Positions 48,246 to 54,462 of a stretch of DNA of 64,000 nucleotides are shown in pieces (position 1 is the first letter of the stretch; each line of letters starts with the position of its first letter). The notes under the pieces were generated by a model. It was not told the DNA's origin. It saw nothing but the letters and a program-made list of their open reading frames with translations, and searched no databases. The stretch comes from Lobosporangium transversale. Taxonomy: Eukaryota > Mortierellomycota > Mortierellomycetes > Mortierellales > Mortierellaceae. Where the stretch lies: positions 372,001 through 436,000 of the forward strand of contig NW_019028988.1 in NCBI RefSeq assembly GCF_002105155.1, read 5' to 3'. Position numbers and translations under genes: made by a program.

Positions 48246-49216
48246 TGTTACAAATATCGACTGAGTGTGAATAGGGGATATGAAGCAACAATCAGTAGAT
48301 CGGATGAGGGGACACTGAAAAGTAAAAAGTCGTTCTTATTAATGGAAGGAATGAGTTGAATGAGCAAGAATCTGGTAGAATGAGAATCGAGTGAGAATGG
48401 GAAAAAAAGGTACAAACAAGGAGTGATATTGCGCAGAGGAGGAGAGAGAAAGAGAAGGAGGAAAAAAATATATGTATGTATACATATACGCCGAGCGGCC
48501 CTCTTGCTTTTTAGACGGGACAGAGTTACCTTATTCTGCTACAACAGCCAGAAGCCATTGTTTGTCCTTGTTCTGTTCGCGTCTGTGAGGATTGTAAACA
48601 GAATGTGAGCACAAAAAAGAAATTTCCCCACCATTTTCTTGTGCTCGGTCTTGTTAGTTATTTCCAAACAAAATCCGAGATTGTGTTCCTTTAATTCCCT
48701 ACAATGATACCCAGAATAGTTCCCAGCACTTCATATAGGAGAAATTGGTCCCTGAATGTGCCCGCAATGAGCAGCGAGTGTGTGCGCATGGGTATATGGA
48801 GTAAATGGTATTGGAGTAAAGGGCACTGGAGTTAGTCCTATTGCCGATATGAAGAAGGAAGTAAGGGAGAATAGATAGATTATTAAAAGAACAAAAAGAT
48901 ACAGACTTGCCTCCGTAACCTTTTCTACTGGTGTACTGTGTTGACAAGAAGACAATAATAGGCAATTCTCCAAGCGCAAGTATTCAACTGCTCTGTAGGG
49001 GACAAATGAGACGATCCTTGCATTTTATCACCATCACATCATACCAAATCGCTACCTATTGTACGAAAAGGCGGTGCAATCATTCCATTGGCTTGCAAAA
49101 GAAAAGAAAGTAAATCGGCTCAAAAAGCTTGAAGGCATTCACATCCGGACCCATGGAGTGGTGTCTTTATTGAAGGATTCTTTTTTGTATGCACAATACT
49201 GGTTTTTTTTTTTCTT

Positions 49217-49255
<39 letters not shown>

Positions 49256-49974
49256 AAGCAGACAGGATATATTATAAAAATGGTGGCAAAGGACACAAAG
49301 AAAACAGCTCACTTTAAAAAATATGTGTATTCTTCCCATGCTCAAAATTCCTCCGGACTATCCCGTCGTCCGAAAGATACGCCAATAGGCTATTTGTCAT
49401 CAACAGTCTCATGTCTCGATAAACACTCTAGACTTTACTGATCAAGCTGGAATAAAAATAACGCGTCCATCACAAGTGATTTTGAGGACTTTTTGATCAA
49501 TACAAGACCTTCTACATTGCTCTTTATCTGTCTCTATTCCTTTCTTCCTTTCTTTTTTTTTGTACATAAGAATATAAGGCAGACTAGACTTAGCAGACTA
49601 AGTCCCCTTGGAAGAGGTATCACTTGTAACGAACTTTCTTTTATATTCCTTTATTGTTCATTGCCTTTACACCTTAATATGTTCTTGTTATTATTCCAAT
49701 CTTTTTACTCAGCCACGCAAACATCCATACCATTTTATACAATTCATTTTATACAATTATTTTTCATACAAACACAATGTTGTGTTCGCTTAGATCTGAA
49801 GAAGTAGCAGAAGAAAAAGAGTTTGATCACGATGCCTGGTTGCTCACTATCAATGCACACATATATAGTCCGTCCCATTAAAAAACGAGACATTCCATCT
49901 ATTGTAAAAAGAAGAAATGTATTAGAACACAGAAATAAATAAATAAATAAATTAACCAAGAAAAAAAAGTATTA
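48246..49974. other. Gene-poor flank of the Fanzor element
   Basis: 1.7 kb. Contains purine-rich leader of the Cys-motif gene (48340-48470) and a T20/A30 palindrome at 49203-49253. AT-rich sequence at 49860-49974 shows patchy similarity to the inverted right flank (see findings). No gene supported. Confidence 0.5.
49203..49253. repeat. T-run/A-run palindrome
   Basis: T11-C-T9 (49203-49223) directly followed by A30 (49224-49253). It can fold as an A-T hairpin. Confidence 0.9.
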
Positions 49975-50039
49975 TCAAGCCAATACTTACAATTTTTTTA
50001 AGACGAAGGCCTTTCTGGACCTAGTCATGTTTGTAGTAG
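49975..50039 (+). repeat. Left terminal inverted repeat of the Fanzor element
   Basis: 65 bases starting TCAAGCCAATACTTAC and ending TTTGTAGTAG. Its reverse complement matches 53131-53195 at 60 of 65 positions with no gaps. The inner end lies 8 bases from the stop codon of the Fanzor gene. The unit contains a possible hairpin around GACTAGG/CCTTCGTC. In TnpB-type elements this side (3' of the nuclease) encodes the guide RNA scaffold, so the repeat may be part of it (inference). Confidence 0.93.
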
Positions 50040-50047
50040 ATTGTGTC

Positions 50048-52854
50048 CTACTGTTGTTGCCGGCTTGTCTCTCCCCCTCCTCCTGGACCCAGCAAAGGTC
50101 CTTTCGGTGGTCTTGATCCCTCTACTCCTCCTCCTCCTTCATCTGAAAATTTCCTTTTTGTGGATCTGCTACTACCACCACCACTGCCACCACTACCTCC
50201 ACCGCCGCCACTACCGCTAGAAGCTTGGCCTTGAGTTCCTCCGTCCGGCGGCATATATTTTGCAGGTCGTTTTTGCTCTCTTATCTGCGACTCACAGACC
50301 CTTGCGATGTTCTCAGCACCAACAGCATCTCGATCAAAGTATGCTTTACAATTTCGACAGTACTTGGATCGAAAAGGAACATTCTCCAATATACTGTCAC
50401 AGTGAGGCCGTGGACACTTGGCAGATGTGTAGTATTTATGACAACCTACAATGGGGTAGTCTAGAGATTTTGCCTGTTCGAGCCAGATTTAATACTCGTT
50501 AAAAAAAAGACTCAAAAATTAAATGTCATTGATCAAAGGATTTTTTTTTTACCTTTTCAACAAGCTTCTTCATCAATATCCCATGCTTCGATACTTGTCC
50601 TCGGTTTGTCTTGAATGATCCTAGTCCAATACAGATCACCGCATTCGTATTGGCATCTCTTCTTCTTCCATTGCTTCCGCCCGCAAGCTTCAGAATTGCC
50701 TTGATCACATAATCAACGCATCCGTTCTGTGCTTTTCTATTATCCCAGCTATTCCGAACAAACCACCCGTCATTATAGAAATCGACAAGCGCCCTATATA
50801 TAGTCTCCCTATTGTCGTCACTGGTCCTAGATCCACTGCTACTACTGGCCTCAACTCCACTGCTACTACCGGTCCCTGCTCCACTACCAGAGAAACTACC
50901 TCCAGTACTTGATGGAGCTTGATTTAGCGGCAAGCTCATATAAGCGAAATACTGTGTTAAAGTAGGCCTTGAGAATGTCGGAATATTGCTTTCAATCTCT
51001 GTAATTCCTCTTCTAAGCTTTCGCCTCTCTAGCTCGCCCTGAAACTTCTTGGATGGTTTGTAAAGGTACGCTCTAGAAATCCGGAGGATCTCACGTTCGT
51101 TAGGTTTCCTTGGATCCAACTTTGCAATTGTCATCGAGTACCTCTCGCCTGGATCGATCCCAATGATAATGGTACTTTCGGGGGGAGGGCATGCTGCCCG
51201 GGTGTCATATTTAACTTCTACATTCTCGAGGAGACGGGATCTCTGCTTCCAGTTGATCTCACGCCGGGGACTGGGACTCACCGGGGACAGTGGATTTGTG
51301 CTCGATGTACCTTCTTCAGCTGCTTCTTCTCCCTCGTCGCCTTCTAAGAATGGTTCATCAACTTCCAGCAAGTCAATATCGCTGATACCCAGCAAGATAT
51401 CGTCATCTTCATTTCCGTCGTCGTCTCCATCATCACCACCATCACCTGCACCATGGCCTGAAGACGAGGATCCCTGCTGAGCACTTGAAGAAGCCTGGAC
51501 TGCTTGAGATCTTTGAGTATCCGAAGGTTGGGCAGCTTGCGAACCTCTACCTCTTTTTGCTTCGATGTGTCATAGGCAAGAAGTGTTAGGGTAAGGCCGT
51601 TTGTAAAGAACGATGTCCGTAGTTTCCTTCTAGGTCCATCATCAGATTGCAGTCCAACGTCCTTGTATCCTTTCAAGGAAAACAGCTCCTGCAACAATAT
51701 CCCCTTGTGGTTAAGGATCTTGTCCTCTGCAGCCCCCTTGGTACTCATGTTTAGTTCCAACAATTGGACTATTTCCTCTCGAACTGTTGGGTTAGACCAT
51801 AATATATCCAGGAGGCAGGCTTCCGTTAGGCAGAGAGACTGAGGCGGGAAAGCAGACGTAGGGAAATCCAGATATTTTTTGGCAGTTTTTTGCTCAAAAA
51901 AGAATTGGATGGAACTTCTTCCATCGCCTGGAATATCTATGTCAAACTAGACATTATATTGAAGAAATGATTAGGAACATTTCTATAAACATATTATATT
52001 TACCTGCGCATTCCGATAGTGAGACCTTAGCGCTGCTTGAACAGGGACCATGACCATCCGAGGCGACTTGCCGATCACCAAATCGGGATAGATCTGGTTT
52101 AAAGGACCAAGCCCTGTCTTTGCATAGAAGTTTTCGTATGCTTTGAGCTGGGACGGCTTGGCTACGTTCCCTTCGCCTTTTTTCTTCACTTCCCTGCTAT
52201 CAAGAACTTCATCTAGGAGTTGTGGGAGATCAGCTGGATTGGATGGCCCAGTGGTAAGCAGGTTATCGATCCACAAGGCGCAGGCCCAGAAAGCTCGAAT
52301 CCGTGCCTCATTCAACATTTAATAAATGATTGAATGAGCCCTTGAATTGTTGCAGCAAGTTGCTCGGGATTGAGATTGGGATCGGAAGTAGAGTCCAGCT
52401 TGGCAACTACACATGTCTTTAACGTGCCCAGCGTTAATGCAACAGTGGGGTGGACCCTCTTCAACCGTCGGTCCTCGGCAGTAGCCTCCTTCACTTTCCT
52501 GGTCTTATCAGTCTTTCTGATATACTTGGCCTTCCCTTTGTTCTTCTTTTTTTTCTTCTTTTCCTCCTTAACCTCCTCTTCTTTCTCATCCTCTTTTTTT
52601 TCCTTTTCCTTTTTTTTGGGGGACTTTCTTTGATGGCTGGAGCTGACGGGACGGTCGTGTTGTTTGCGATTCGGCTTTGCGCGTTTAGGGATATAGAATC
52701 TAATTAGGAACAACAATGTCAAGTGTTAGATGACTTTTTTTTTTTTTTTTTTTTTTTTTTGTATATGCTTTGGAAAATGTTCATTTGAAGGAGCTTACCT
52801 GGGTTGAGGTTGATTATTTTTATTCTGGTACCTAGCAGATATCGCAGTCCTCAT
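50048..52854 (-). CDS. Fanzor (eukaryotic TnpB homologue), RNA-guided nuclease family; two frame breaks
   Basis: Exons on minus: about 52854-52799, 52699-52004, 51946-50553, 50473-50048, about 800 residues once breaks are ignored. In order: a Lys/Glu-rich nuclear-signal-like N-terminus; MLNEARIRAFWACALWIDNL; IPGDGRSSIQFFFEQKTAKK; RRKLRTSFFTNGLTLTLLAY, characteristic of Fanzor; an acidic/Ser-rich linker; RuvC-I IIIGIDPGERYSMTIA with the catalytic Asp; the RuvC-II region VICIGLGSFKTNRGQVSKHG; a zinc ribbon SAKCPRPHC...SKYCRNCKAYF; and RuvC-III FDRDAVGAENIARV with the last Asp. A Gly/Ser-rich tail follows. Frame breaks lie at 52318-52320 and 51554-51558. The start is unsure: the frame is open to a TAA near 52944, and an ATG in good context lies at 52989. 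The family cuts DNA guided by an RNA from the element's end. Confidence 0.92.
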
Positions 52855-53130
52855 TCTATCATGGTAATGAAGGAATCTTTCAGCGGTTGGTTGCTGCGAG
52901 GCCTGGGTTTGGATCCAGTTGCATATTTCACAGTACACGTGTTACATGAAAATTTATAATACAGACATACTAACAGTTCTATGTCCCATGGTGTGGTGCC
53001 CGAGACAAACTTGCAGTTTTATTTTGATACAAATTTGGATAAATGCCCCATGGATGTGATGTGTGAACCCACATCCTATTCTCACTTCTGCTCCCTGGTT
53101 ACTATTTGTCTGTCTAAAATTTTTCATGAG
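52855..53130. other. 5' flank of the Fanzor gene inside the element
   Basis: About 275 bases. On minus, the coding frame extends upstream without ATG through VYCEICNWIQTQASQQPTAE-RFLHYH, which has a C-x2-C...H-x-H look, until a TAA near 52944. An ATG at 52989 in a strong context (ACCATGGG) opens MGHRTV followed at once by a GTATGT donor, so a small first exon is possible, but no acceptor in the right phase was found. Confidence 0.45.
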
Positions 53131-53195
53131 CTACTACAAACATGACTAGGTCGGAAAAGGCCTTCGTCTTGAAAAAATTGTAAGTATTAGCTTGA
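53131..53195 (-). repeat. Right terminal inverted repeat of the Fanzor element
   Basis: 65 bases, inverted copy of 49975-50039 with five mismatches (one C/T, one T/C, and three adjacent). Lies 5' of the Fanzor gene. Confidence 0.93.
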
Positions 53196-53771
53196 CAGTG
53201 CTTTCTTGACTAAACTCTTTATTTCTATGCTTGGTCTAGATGGTGTTTTTTTATGGGGAGAACTATTTAGACAACATATAGACCCCACATATCTTAATCC
53301 TAATAAATTGACTTGGTGGCATTGTTGTAAAAAATATCTTTGCTTAAGGGACAGAAAGATAGACACAATCAGGAAAAGGTAGGACAAAGAGTGTCAACAA
53401 GATTGACAAGAGAAAATAGAGTCAAATAACCTTGACTACAAACAGCGCCATAGAATGTCAAAAGAAAAGATGGGAGCTTTATAGGTGAGCTCACAAACTG
53501 AGTTACCGGAAGACAAATGCTTGTTGTGAAAAGGGGAAAAAGATAAATGGCAAGATGAACTGCGGATGAAGAATAAGACATGTGGGGAAAACTGAAGACT
53601 TTATTAAGAAGGAAGTTTCTTTGGCTTTTATACTCGGTAGTTTCTAGGTGAGGCGGACCCGCCTATGACTACAAAGGCTTTGCGCAAAGATTCCTTTAAG
53701 CTGGTTCGACAGATTAGTGGATACAAGATAAACTGAAATTAATTTTAATGACCAGTTGACCAGTCACACCA

Positions 53772-53862
53772 CTTGCAATAACAAGCGAGTCAATTGGCTG
53801 CCAATACATTTAAGAGTATTCAAAAAATATAAGGGATCGCGACCAAATGGAACGGGCTATAC
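53772..53862 (+). repeat. Direct repeat copy A
   Basis: Shares with copy B the string AACAAGCGAG, then AATTGGCTGCCAATAC, AGTATTCAAAAAATATAAGG, ATCGCGACCAAATG and AACGGGCTATA, with few mismatches. Ends at GGGCTATACC. Confidence 0.88.
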
Positions 53863-53924
53863 CTTATATTTTTAATCTAAAAACGATGATTGAATTGTTC
53901 TGGTGGCATCTCACTACGTGACGG

Positions 53925-54024
53925 ACTTGCAACAATACTCGTAACAAGCGAGCTAATTGGCTGCCAATACACTCGAAAGTATTCAAAAAATATAAGGTAT
54001 CGCGACCAAATGAAACGGGCTATA
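53925..54024 (+). repeat. Direct repeat copy B with palindromic extension
   Basis: Second copy of the ~95-bp repeat, about 155 bases after copy A and with a short insertion near its start. It continues into TATCGTGACCAA-ATAAAA-TTGGCGATA (54022-54048), an imperfect hairpin. Confidence 0.88.
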
Positions 54025-54462
54025 TCGTGACCAAATAAAATTGGCGATACCAAACTTTTCGTGCCATTGATTTTATTGAACATTGCTGACCAAAAGTATT
54101 CCAAAATTAGACGAGGAGGTGAATTGTTCGGTTTCTGCATCATCAAAGTGTTGAAGAGAGAAGGACAGGGGAAAGAAAGTCCTTATTTTTCGACTTTGCA
54201 AATATCGTCGTTACACGAACTAAAATATGGAATTCTTCACATTCTTTCGTGGGCTTCGATCGTCATTTATTGGTGCGACCGTACCGCAGCTGCCAATAAA
54301 AGTGCAACTCAAAGCTGCAACAGCCCACTTTGATGAGAGAATATAGCCCACTCTTTAGTGTAAAAGTTTATGTCACTTAAACTTCCGCGGAAGCTTTTTC
54401 CGGTGCAAAAAAACGCCGTCTTATGCAGATCCTTCATGTTTAGATTTCTACTTTGAACATGT

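Follow-up and report, generated by a model that had tools for sequence, protein, structure and literature searches.

A transposon family of Lobosporangium transversale with IS630-type ends and an EXO1/FEN1-like nuclease joined to a Fanzor

Fanzor-only Mariner elements are known, as is a Mariner that carries Fanzor1 together with a separate GIY-YIG nuclease (PMC3627910). The transposon copy described here lies at 49864..53861 of a 64,000-nucleotide stretch of the Lobosporangium transversale genome (the window; contig NW_019028988.1, positions 372,001 to 436,000), between TATAG...CTATA ends, and is internally deleted. Its family is like PUl-4, PGv-1 and Spizellomyces SPu-1/SpuFz1, as described in PMC3627910 and PMC10432273, in its TA-flanked inverted-repeat form, its Fanzor1 with a DPG motif and zinc ribbon, its lack of an own transposase and the conserved base(s) adjoining the 5' repeat. 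Its remarkable feature is an EXO1/FEN1-like nuclease joined to the front end of the Fanzor; unlike this N-terminal domain, the second nuclease of PGv-1 is of the GIY-YIG type and a protein by itself. Another zygomycete-lineage Fanzor1 with an extra domain is PpFz1 of Parasitella parasitica, but that domain is described as a cyclophilin-binding insertion in RuvC and not as an N-terminal nuclease (PMC11423790).

Among open-licence PMC papers, supplements aside, none was found with both 'Fanzor' and 'XPG', in a search that made no strict pairing of 'Fanzor' to FEN1, EXO1 or Mortierella. The main texts of PMC3627910, PMC10711439, PMC10432273 and PMC11423790 do not contain 'XPG' at all, and among the top-ranked papers of broader listings (in one, 40 of 82 on Fanzor) there was likewise no account of such a fusion. 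The best overall explanation, to which we give a probability of roughly 0.55, is a transposon family with IS630-type ends whose fused nuclease-Fanzor would steer repair.

The nuclease-Fanzor gene

The gene is read from the minus strand. In the window the EXO1/FEN1-like exon is reduced to its last 41 codons (52799..52920), residues 1-300 having been deleted with the deletion point near 52916. Intron 1 (52700..52798, GTAAGC...TTAG) would, when spliced, join QPQPR to FYIPKRAKP in frame. Exon 2 (52004..52699) follows, shortened here by deletions; it encodes a basic linker and, after it, the first part of the Fanzor REC region. Beyond intron 2 (51947..52003), exon 3 (50553..51946) encodes the Fanzor WED/RuvC part with the DPG motif (51135-51167), and beyond intron 3 (50474..50552), exon 4 (50048..50473) encodes the zinc ribbon (TNB) and RuvC-III.

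The two-domain architecture and the in-frame splice sites can be read from the sequence of the copies. The complete nuclease exon is a 341-aa frame, the stop codon of which sits inside the GTAAGC splice donor of intron 1, and the stop falls within a GTAAG donor in both subfamilies. The intron-1 sites are equidistant from the start in 13 of the 14 copies compared, being shifted in L024 by a nested insertion, and predicted splicing of this intron carries the frame on into the basic linker and then the Fanzor. The same junction, read by hand, is in frame in the subfamily-2 copy L037, where the nuclease is 30% identical, and in L038 nuclease and linker share one 512-aa frame with no intron.

These data bear on a rival arrangement, in which nuclease and Fanzor would be neighbouring genes for two separate proteins of one element and the fusion an artefact of gene models. 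In PGv-1, a known Mariner, a separate GIY-YIG nuclease does neighbour Fanzor1 (PMC3627910), the 341-aa frame does close at its own stop codon, and in the L. transversale annotation this exon appears by itself as a 'PIN domain-like' protein with 13 members (P0014). Against it stand the embedding of that stop in the splice donor, the single frame of L038, and a stretch after the stop, FYxxK...NxYRPxF, which is kept between species and is not preceded by an exon-2 Met in L012 or the window. Public gene models, also of other species, span the junction. Those from Podila verticillata (P0003) and Mortierella alpina (P0004) contain both nuclease and zinc ribbon, while one from Benniella (P0001) runs from the nuclease into RuvC and stops short of the zinc ribbon. 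Three models finish in the linker or soon after (P0015 and P0026, Mortierella sp.; P0018, Entomortierella chlamydospora), and one from L. transversale (P0008) begins within the final residues of the nuclease. We therefore regard two separate proteins as improbable.

For 34 of 42 subfamily-2 Fanzor loci, and for 19 of 26 loci found with P0003, a nuclease match lies on the same strand at most 4 kb upstream (the counts use 82 of 105 nuclease matches and 42 of 149 and 26 of 88 Fanzor matches, about one per locus). Over 13 copies the ratio of nonsynonymous to synonymous polymorphism (pN/pS) was 0.35 for the nuclease, 0.41 for REC/WED and 0.55 for RuvC/TNB, compared with 1.54 for the linker. Besides the stand-alone annotation, several observations weigh against the overall explanation. 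No upstream same-strand match was seen at the other 8 of 42 and 7 of 26 loci. All three introns could be placed in ten copies; the frame is interrupted in nine of them and open through all motifs in one, L012, where even so the C-terminal tail is out of the family frame. On balance the gene very probably encodes one spliced protein of about 1135-1260 aa, in which an EXO1/FEN1-type 5' nuclease of the XPG superfamily is predicted at the N terminus and a Fanzor1 at the C terminus, with a basic linker between them; expression and splicing of the fused gene are likewise predicted. Fanzor1 proteins usually have 600-700 aa and no fused nuclease, the size being a usual property rather than a definition (PMC11423790), and the fusion exceeds this size.

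A structure model gives the N domain the XPG/FEN1/EXO1 superfamily fold, with EXO1 and FEN1, both DNA nucleases, as its nearest relatives in structure. Compared with the EXO1/FEN1/XPG (RAD2) nucleases the family is transposon-borne and has 11-16% identity in the rows compared. No nuclease member scanned matched the Pfam XPG models above cut-off: XPG_I scored 14.8 bits against a cut-off of 24.9 in the first member (best E-value 0.018 among four of seven members), XPG_I_2 reached 7.7e-4 at best, in one of the seven, and P0004 scored 18.6 bits against 24.2. Acidic positions are conserved, D36, D85, E171, D173, D190, D192 and D243 being invariant in seven nuclease sequences; we take these to correspond to the FEN1 catalytic acids, which we number D34, D86, E158, E160, D179, D181 and D233. 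Across 15 sequences D173, D190 and D192 are invariant and D85, E171 and D243 are conserved in at least 90% (D36 is not listed); a G at D36 in copy L011 speaks against full conservation. Nuclease activity is predicted for the N domain. The named matches of the two nuclease searches all belong to genera placed in the Mortierellomycota, and among viral contigs 15 pattern matches yielded no confirmed relative.

For the Fanzor half, the motifs named in a preliminary description of this DNA all recur on the minus strand, namely GIDPGERYS (within 51135-51167), CPRPHC (50399-50416), DRDAVGAENI (50306-50335) and the RRKLRTSFFTNGL block (51593-51631). The profile check it had proposed is positive too, since the zinc-ribbon frame matches Pfam PF07282, Cas12f1-like_TNB (2e-6; 28.3 bits, cut-off 26.3), as do P0003 (6e-8) and P0004 (1.8e-9). 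A C4 zinc ribbon/TNB domain followed by RD, as is the criterion for Fanzor1, is present, and the first cysteine pair of the zinc finger is CxxxxC in this family, not CxxC. The window copy has the DPG motif of RuvC-I (IIGIDPGER), as do 14 of 19 other fetched copies, one of these as IIRIDPGER; the stretch is missing or unmatched in the remaining five, and the divergent P0004 has DLG in its place. The alternative RuvC-II glutamate, defined as lying six residues before the zinc finger (PMC10711439), is present (HEYYTSAKC) in 14 of the 15 copies that include this part of the gene.

Ends, copies and mobilisation

The preliminary description had placed the element between two 65-bp inverted repeats. 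These arms (49975-50039, plus strand; 53131-53195, minus strand) are indeed identical at 60 of 65 positions, and a repeat search lengthens them to 77 nt at 88%. As boundaries they were ruled out. Homology of other copies goes on past both, ending at about 49864 and about 53862, and the repeats are therefore subterminal, the left one just 3' of the Fanzor stop codon and the right one upstream of the fused gene. The inverted ends TATAGYCCGTYCCATT stand at the outer homology limits, with TATAGTCCGTCCCATTAA as the left, gene-3' terminal repeat (49864..49881, plus strand) and TATAGCCCGTTCCATTTGGTCGC (minus-strand letters) as the right, gene-5' one (53839..53861, minus strand). The end pattern TATAG[T/C]CCGT[C/T]CCATT has 41 exact matches in the genome, against 0 in a reversed control.

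The left TA (49864-49865) and the right TA (53860-53861) are a probable target-site duplication. Twenty copies were fetched, an 11-kb copy on C117 not among them; in four of these the two ends were not both readable, and TA is present on both sides in 12 of the other 16. L013 has it on neither side, L015 and L026 lack it on the left and L027 on the right. No empty site was seen with 13 joined flanks, for which the best 40 of 132 candidates were scored; this is a point against the overall explanation.

DNA comparison over the 42.7 Mb of the genome revealed many copies, mostly 93-99% identical. Whole-gene copies measure 6.1-6.7 kb and the window copy 4.0 kb, because about 2 kb next to 52916 has been lost. 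The open nuclease exon lost there is kept at 14 other places. The window thus does not hold the compact, nuclease-only Fanzor transposon of 3.2 kb first described, but an internally deleted copy of a larger element, the missing part of which encodes the nuclease fused to the Fanzor. Fanzor and repeats are both present, as the 3.2-kb interpretation would have them; the homology beyond both repeats and the 14 retained exons refute it. What holds of the earlier claims is a Fanzor1-type protein in a mobile element with no transposase found. Fanzor-only elements with Mariner ends were already described (PMC3627910).

Within the shared sequence, the frame lists of L010 and L013 included no transposase (four L010 frames scanned), and none of the four frames of at least 110 aa at 2000-9000 of L022 looked transposase-like by eye. 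A Tc1-type transposase frame is present in L024 (4491-5507; HTH_Tnp_Tc3_2 3.6e-15, DDE_3 2e-13). It was rejected as the family's own: it breaks the nuclease exon of that single copy and is therefore taken as a nested insertion.

A separate 7.0-kb IS630-type transposon, L048 (G000:C44:174300-181480), has perfect inverted repeats of 1358 bp and encodes a 621-aa IS630-type transposase, which matches DDE_3 at 2.9e-4 and NF033545 at 2e-11, the latter below NCBI's cut-off. Over its terminal 43 bp, L048 shares 91% identity with the Fanzor element's right end. It is the one such element fetched, and five further end pairs about 7 kb apart were listed. Judged by sequence, the ends point to mobilisation of the IS630/Tc1-mariner type, which would occur in trans.

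In a partial gene model from Entomortierella lignicola (P0022), the end of a DDE_1 transposase (4.2e-6) lies directly upstream of the nuclease start, and this may be an element with its own transposase.

Element flanks and the proposed role of the fusion

Exact gene-5' ends have a G before TATA in 17 of 19 cases, compared with 3 of 22 gene-3' ends. At the same position of exact IS630-type ends the base is A in 43 of 74 and G in 22 of 74 (17/19 vs 22/74, Fisher p = 2.7e-6; the 74 include both ends of single elements and related copies, the tests being approximate, and the exact end pattern omits ends without TA). The fetched copies have G in all 17 readable gene-5' flanks, including L013, L015 and L027 with a changed end or flank. 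Such a bias might reflect the target preference of the transposase itself. IS630-type ends favour A or G here, so the transposase has some preference, and with a fixed orientation this could yield a bias to G. G alone is far rarer at those ends, however, and the Fanzor elements lack the bias at their opposite, gene-3' end. Moreover, in S. punctatus the CA adjoining the 5' repeat belongs to the tested target-adjacent motif (TAM) CATA (PMC10432273). Transposase preference is thus a rather unlikely source of the G. By analogy with S. punctatus we therefore predict a TAM of 5'-GTA, perhaps AGTA, here represented by the GTA at 53860..53862 (minus strand).

The candidate guide RNA (wRNA) region extends from the Fanzor stop to the element end (49866..50047, minus strand) and includes the left subterminal repeat. 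It can be aligned in nine copies and in relatives, and in L012 a hairpin is predicted for its final 35 nt (z -4.15). These terminal 35 nt alone stand out, the 92-nt stretch after the Fanzor stop having z -0.23, and the near absence of covariation (1 of 24 pairs) is a point against the structure. The 3'-end region may, on weak grounds, yield a wRNA; its guide would be the flank beyond 49864, and the fusion would then cleave DNA guided by this candidate.

In both subfamilies (L012 and L037) a GTAAGT motif follows the Fanzor stop at a short distance and an AG is found close to where the element or the homology ends, as if the 3' non-coding RNA were spliced. The sole match of an Rfam search lay outside the element, a sub-threshold snR42 snoRNA match over long A/T runs (window 49009-49287, minus strand; 22.5 bits, gathering threshold 61) that is probably due to chance.

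For TnpB, cutting of the sister site is described as leading to the element being copied back by recombination, while the role of Fanzor is stated to be unknown (PMC10432273). In the mechanism we propose, an IS630-type transposase supplied in trans would move the element into TA sites, and RNA from the element's 3' end would guide the Fanzor to the same site when empty, on the sister chromatid or at the donor site after excision. The Fanzor would cut next to the 5'-GTA TAM, and the fused EXO1/FEN1-like domain would then trim 5' ends or flaps, which would steer repair to homologous copying of the element. RNA guidance, the TAM, resection and the benefit to the element are what we infer; the repair-steering role of the nuclease has, in our judgement, slightly less than even odds.

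Alternatively, the nuclease domain might mature the wRNA or act on transposition intermediates (hairpins or flaps left by the transposase) and not on Fanzor breaks. Enzymes of the XPG superfamily are structure-specific, with flaps among their substrates, and the 5' leader and the 3' tail carry the subterminal inverted repeats, which could pair. Against this, EXO1 and FEN1, the nearest in fold, are DNA nucleases, and a shared fold does not show the substrate. In our view this alternative is unlikely.

Combining Cas9 with human EXO1 raises homology-directed repair (PMC11107001). The fusion is like this engineered 'exonuclease editor' in bringing together an RNA-guided nuclease and an EXO1-type exonuclease; it differs in being natural and Fanzor-based, not man-made and Cas9-based. 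As a natural counterpart of Cas9-EXO1 tools, it could tentatively be seen as an RNA-guided 'exonuclease editor', in which the linked domain resects the Fanzor break and biases repair to copying of the element into empty GTA-flanked sites. This would be a cut-and-trim homing device that leaves its TAM footprint in the genome-wide insertion pattern, a possibility we favour somewhat less than its converse. Occurrence of the fusion in several genera, with fewer amino-acid changes in both halves than in the linker, points to break repair as a key step, and the fusion makes a role of Fanzor in break repair testable.

The window copy and associated sequences

The window copy has lost about 300 residues of the fused protein together with its start; the reading frame is broken in exon 3, and the alternative RuvC-II glutamate (HxYYTS, 50414-50440) is K in this copy alone, 1 of the 15 with that stretch. 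It is therefore inactive, a dead remnant of the element as judged from its sequence. Two copies of 2.07 kb (L025, L026) have both ends and are without Fanzor motifs or the nuclease start; these gene-less copies resemble what has been described in S. punctatus as ghost loci (PMC10432273).

Other sequences are associated with the family. An 8-kb stretch between family ends contains a 602-aa P-loop frame (L040:3586-5394), a possible gene capture, which matches retrotransposon-hot-spot proteins no more than weakly (0.0018, below cut-off). Upstream of the fused gene in L012 (5164-5748) lies a piece of about 550 bp in the opposite sense, 85% identical to the subfamily-2 Fanzor, which seems captured; similar pieces occur at many family-1 copies. 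In the window itself, a repeat at 53859-54049, for which 28 further matches were listed, adjoins the right end of the element, and the end of this repeat (53942-54024) is 90% identical to the last 83 bp of the element (53779-53861).
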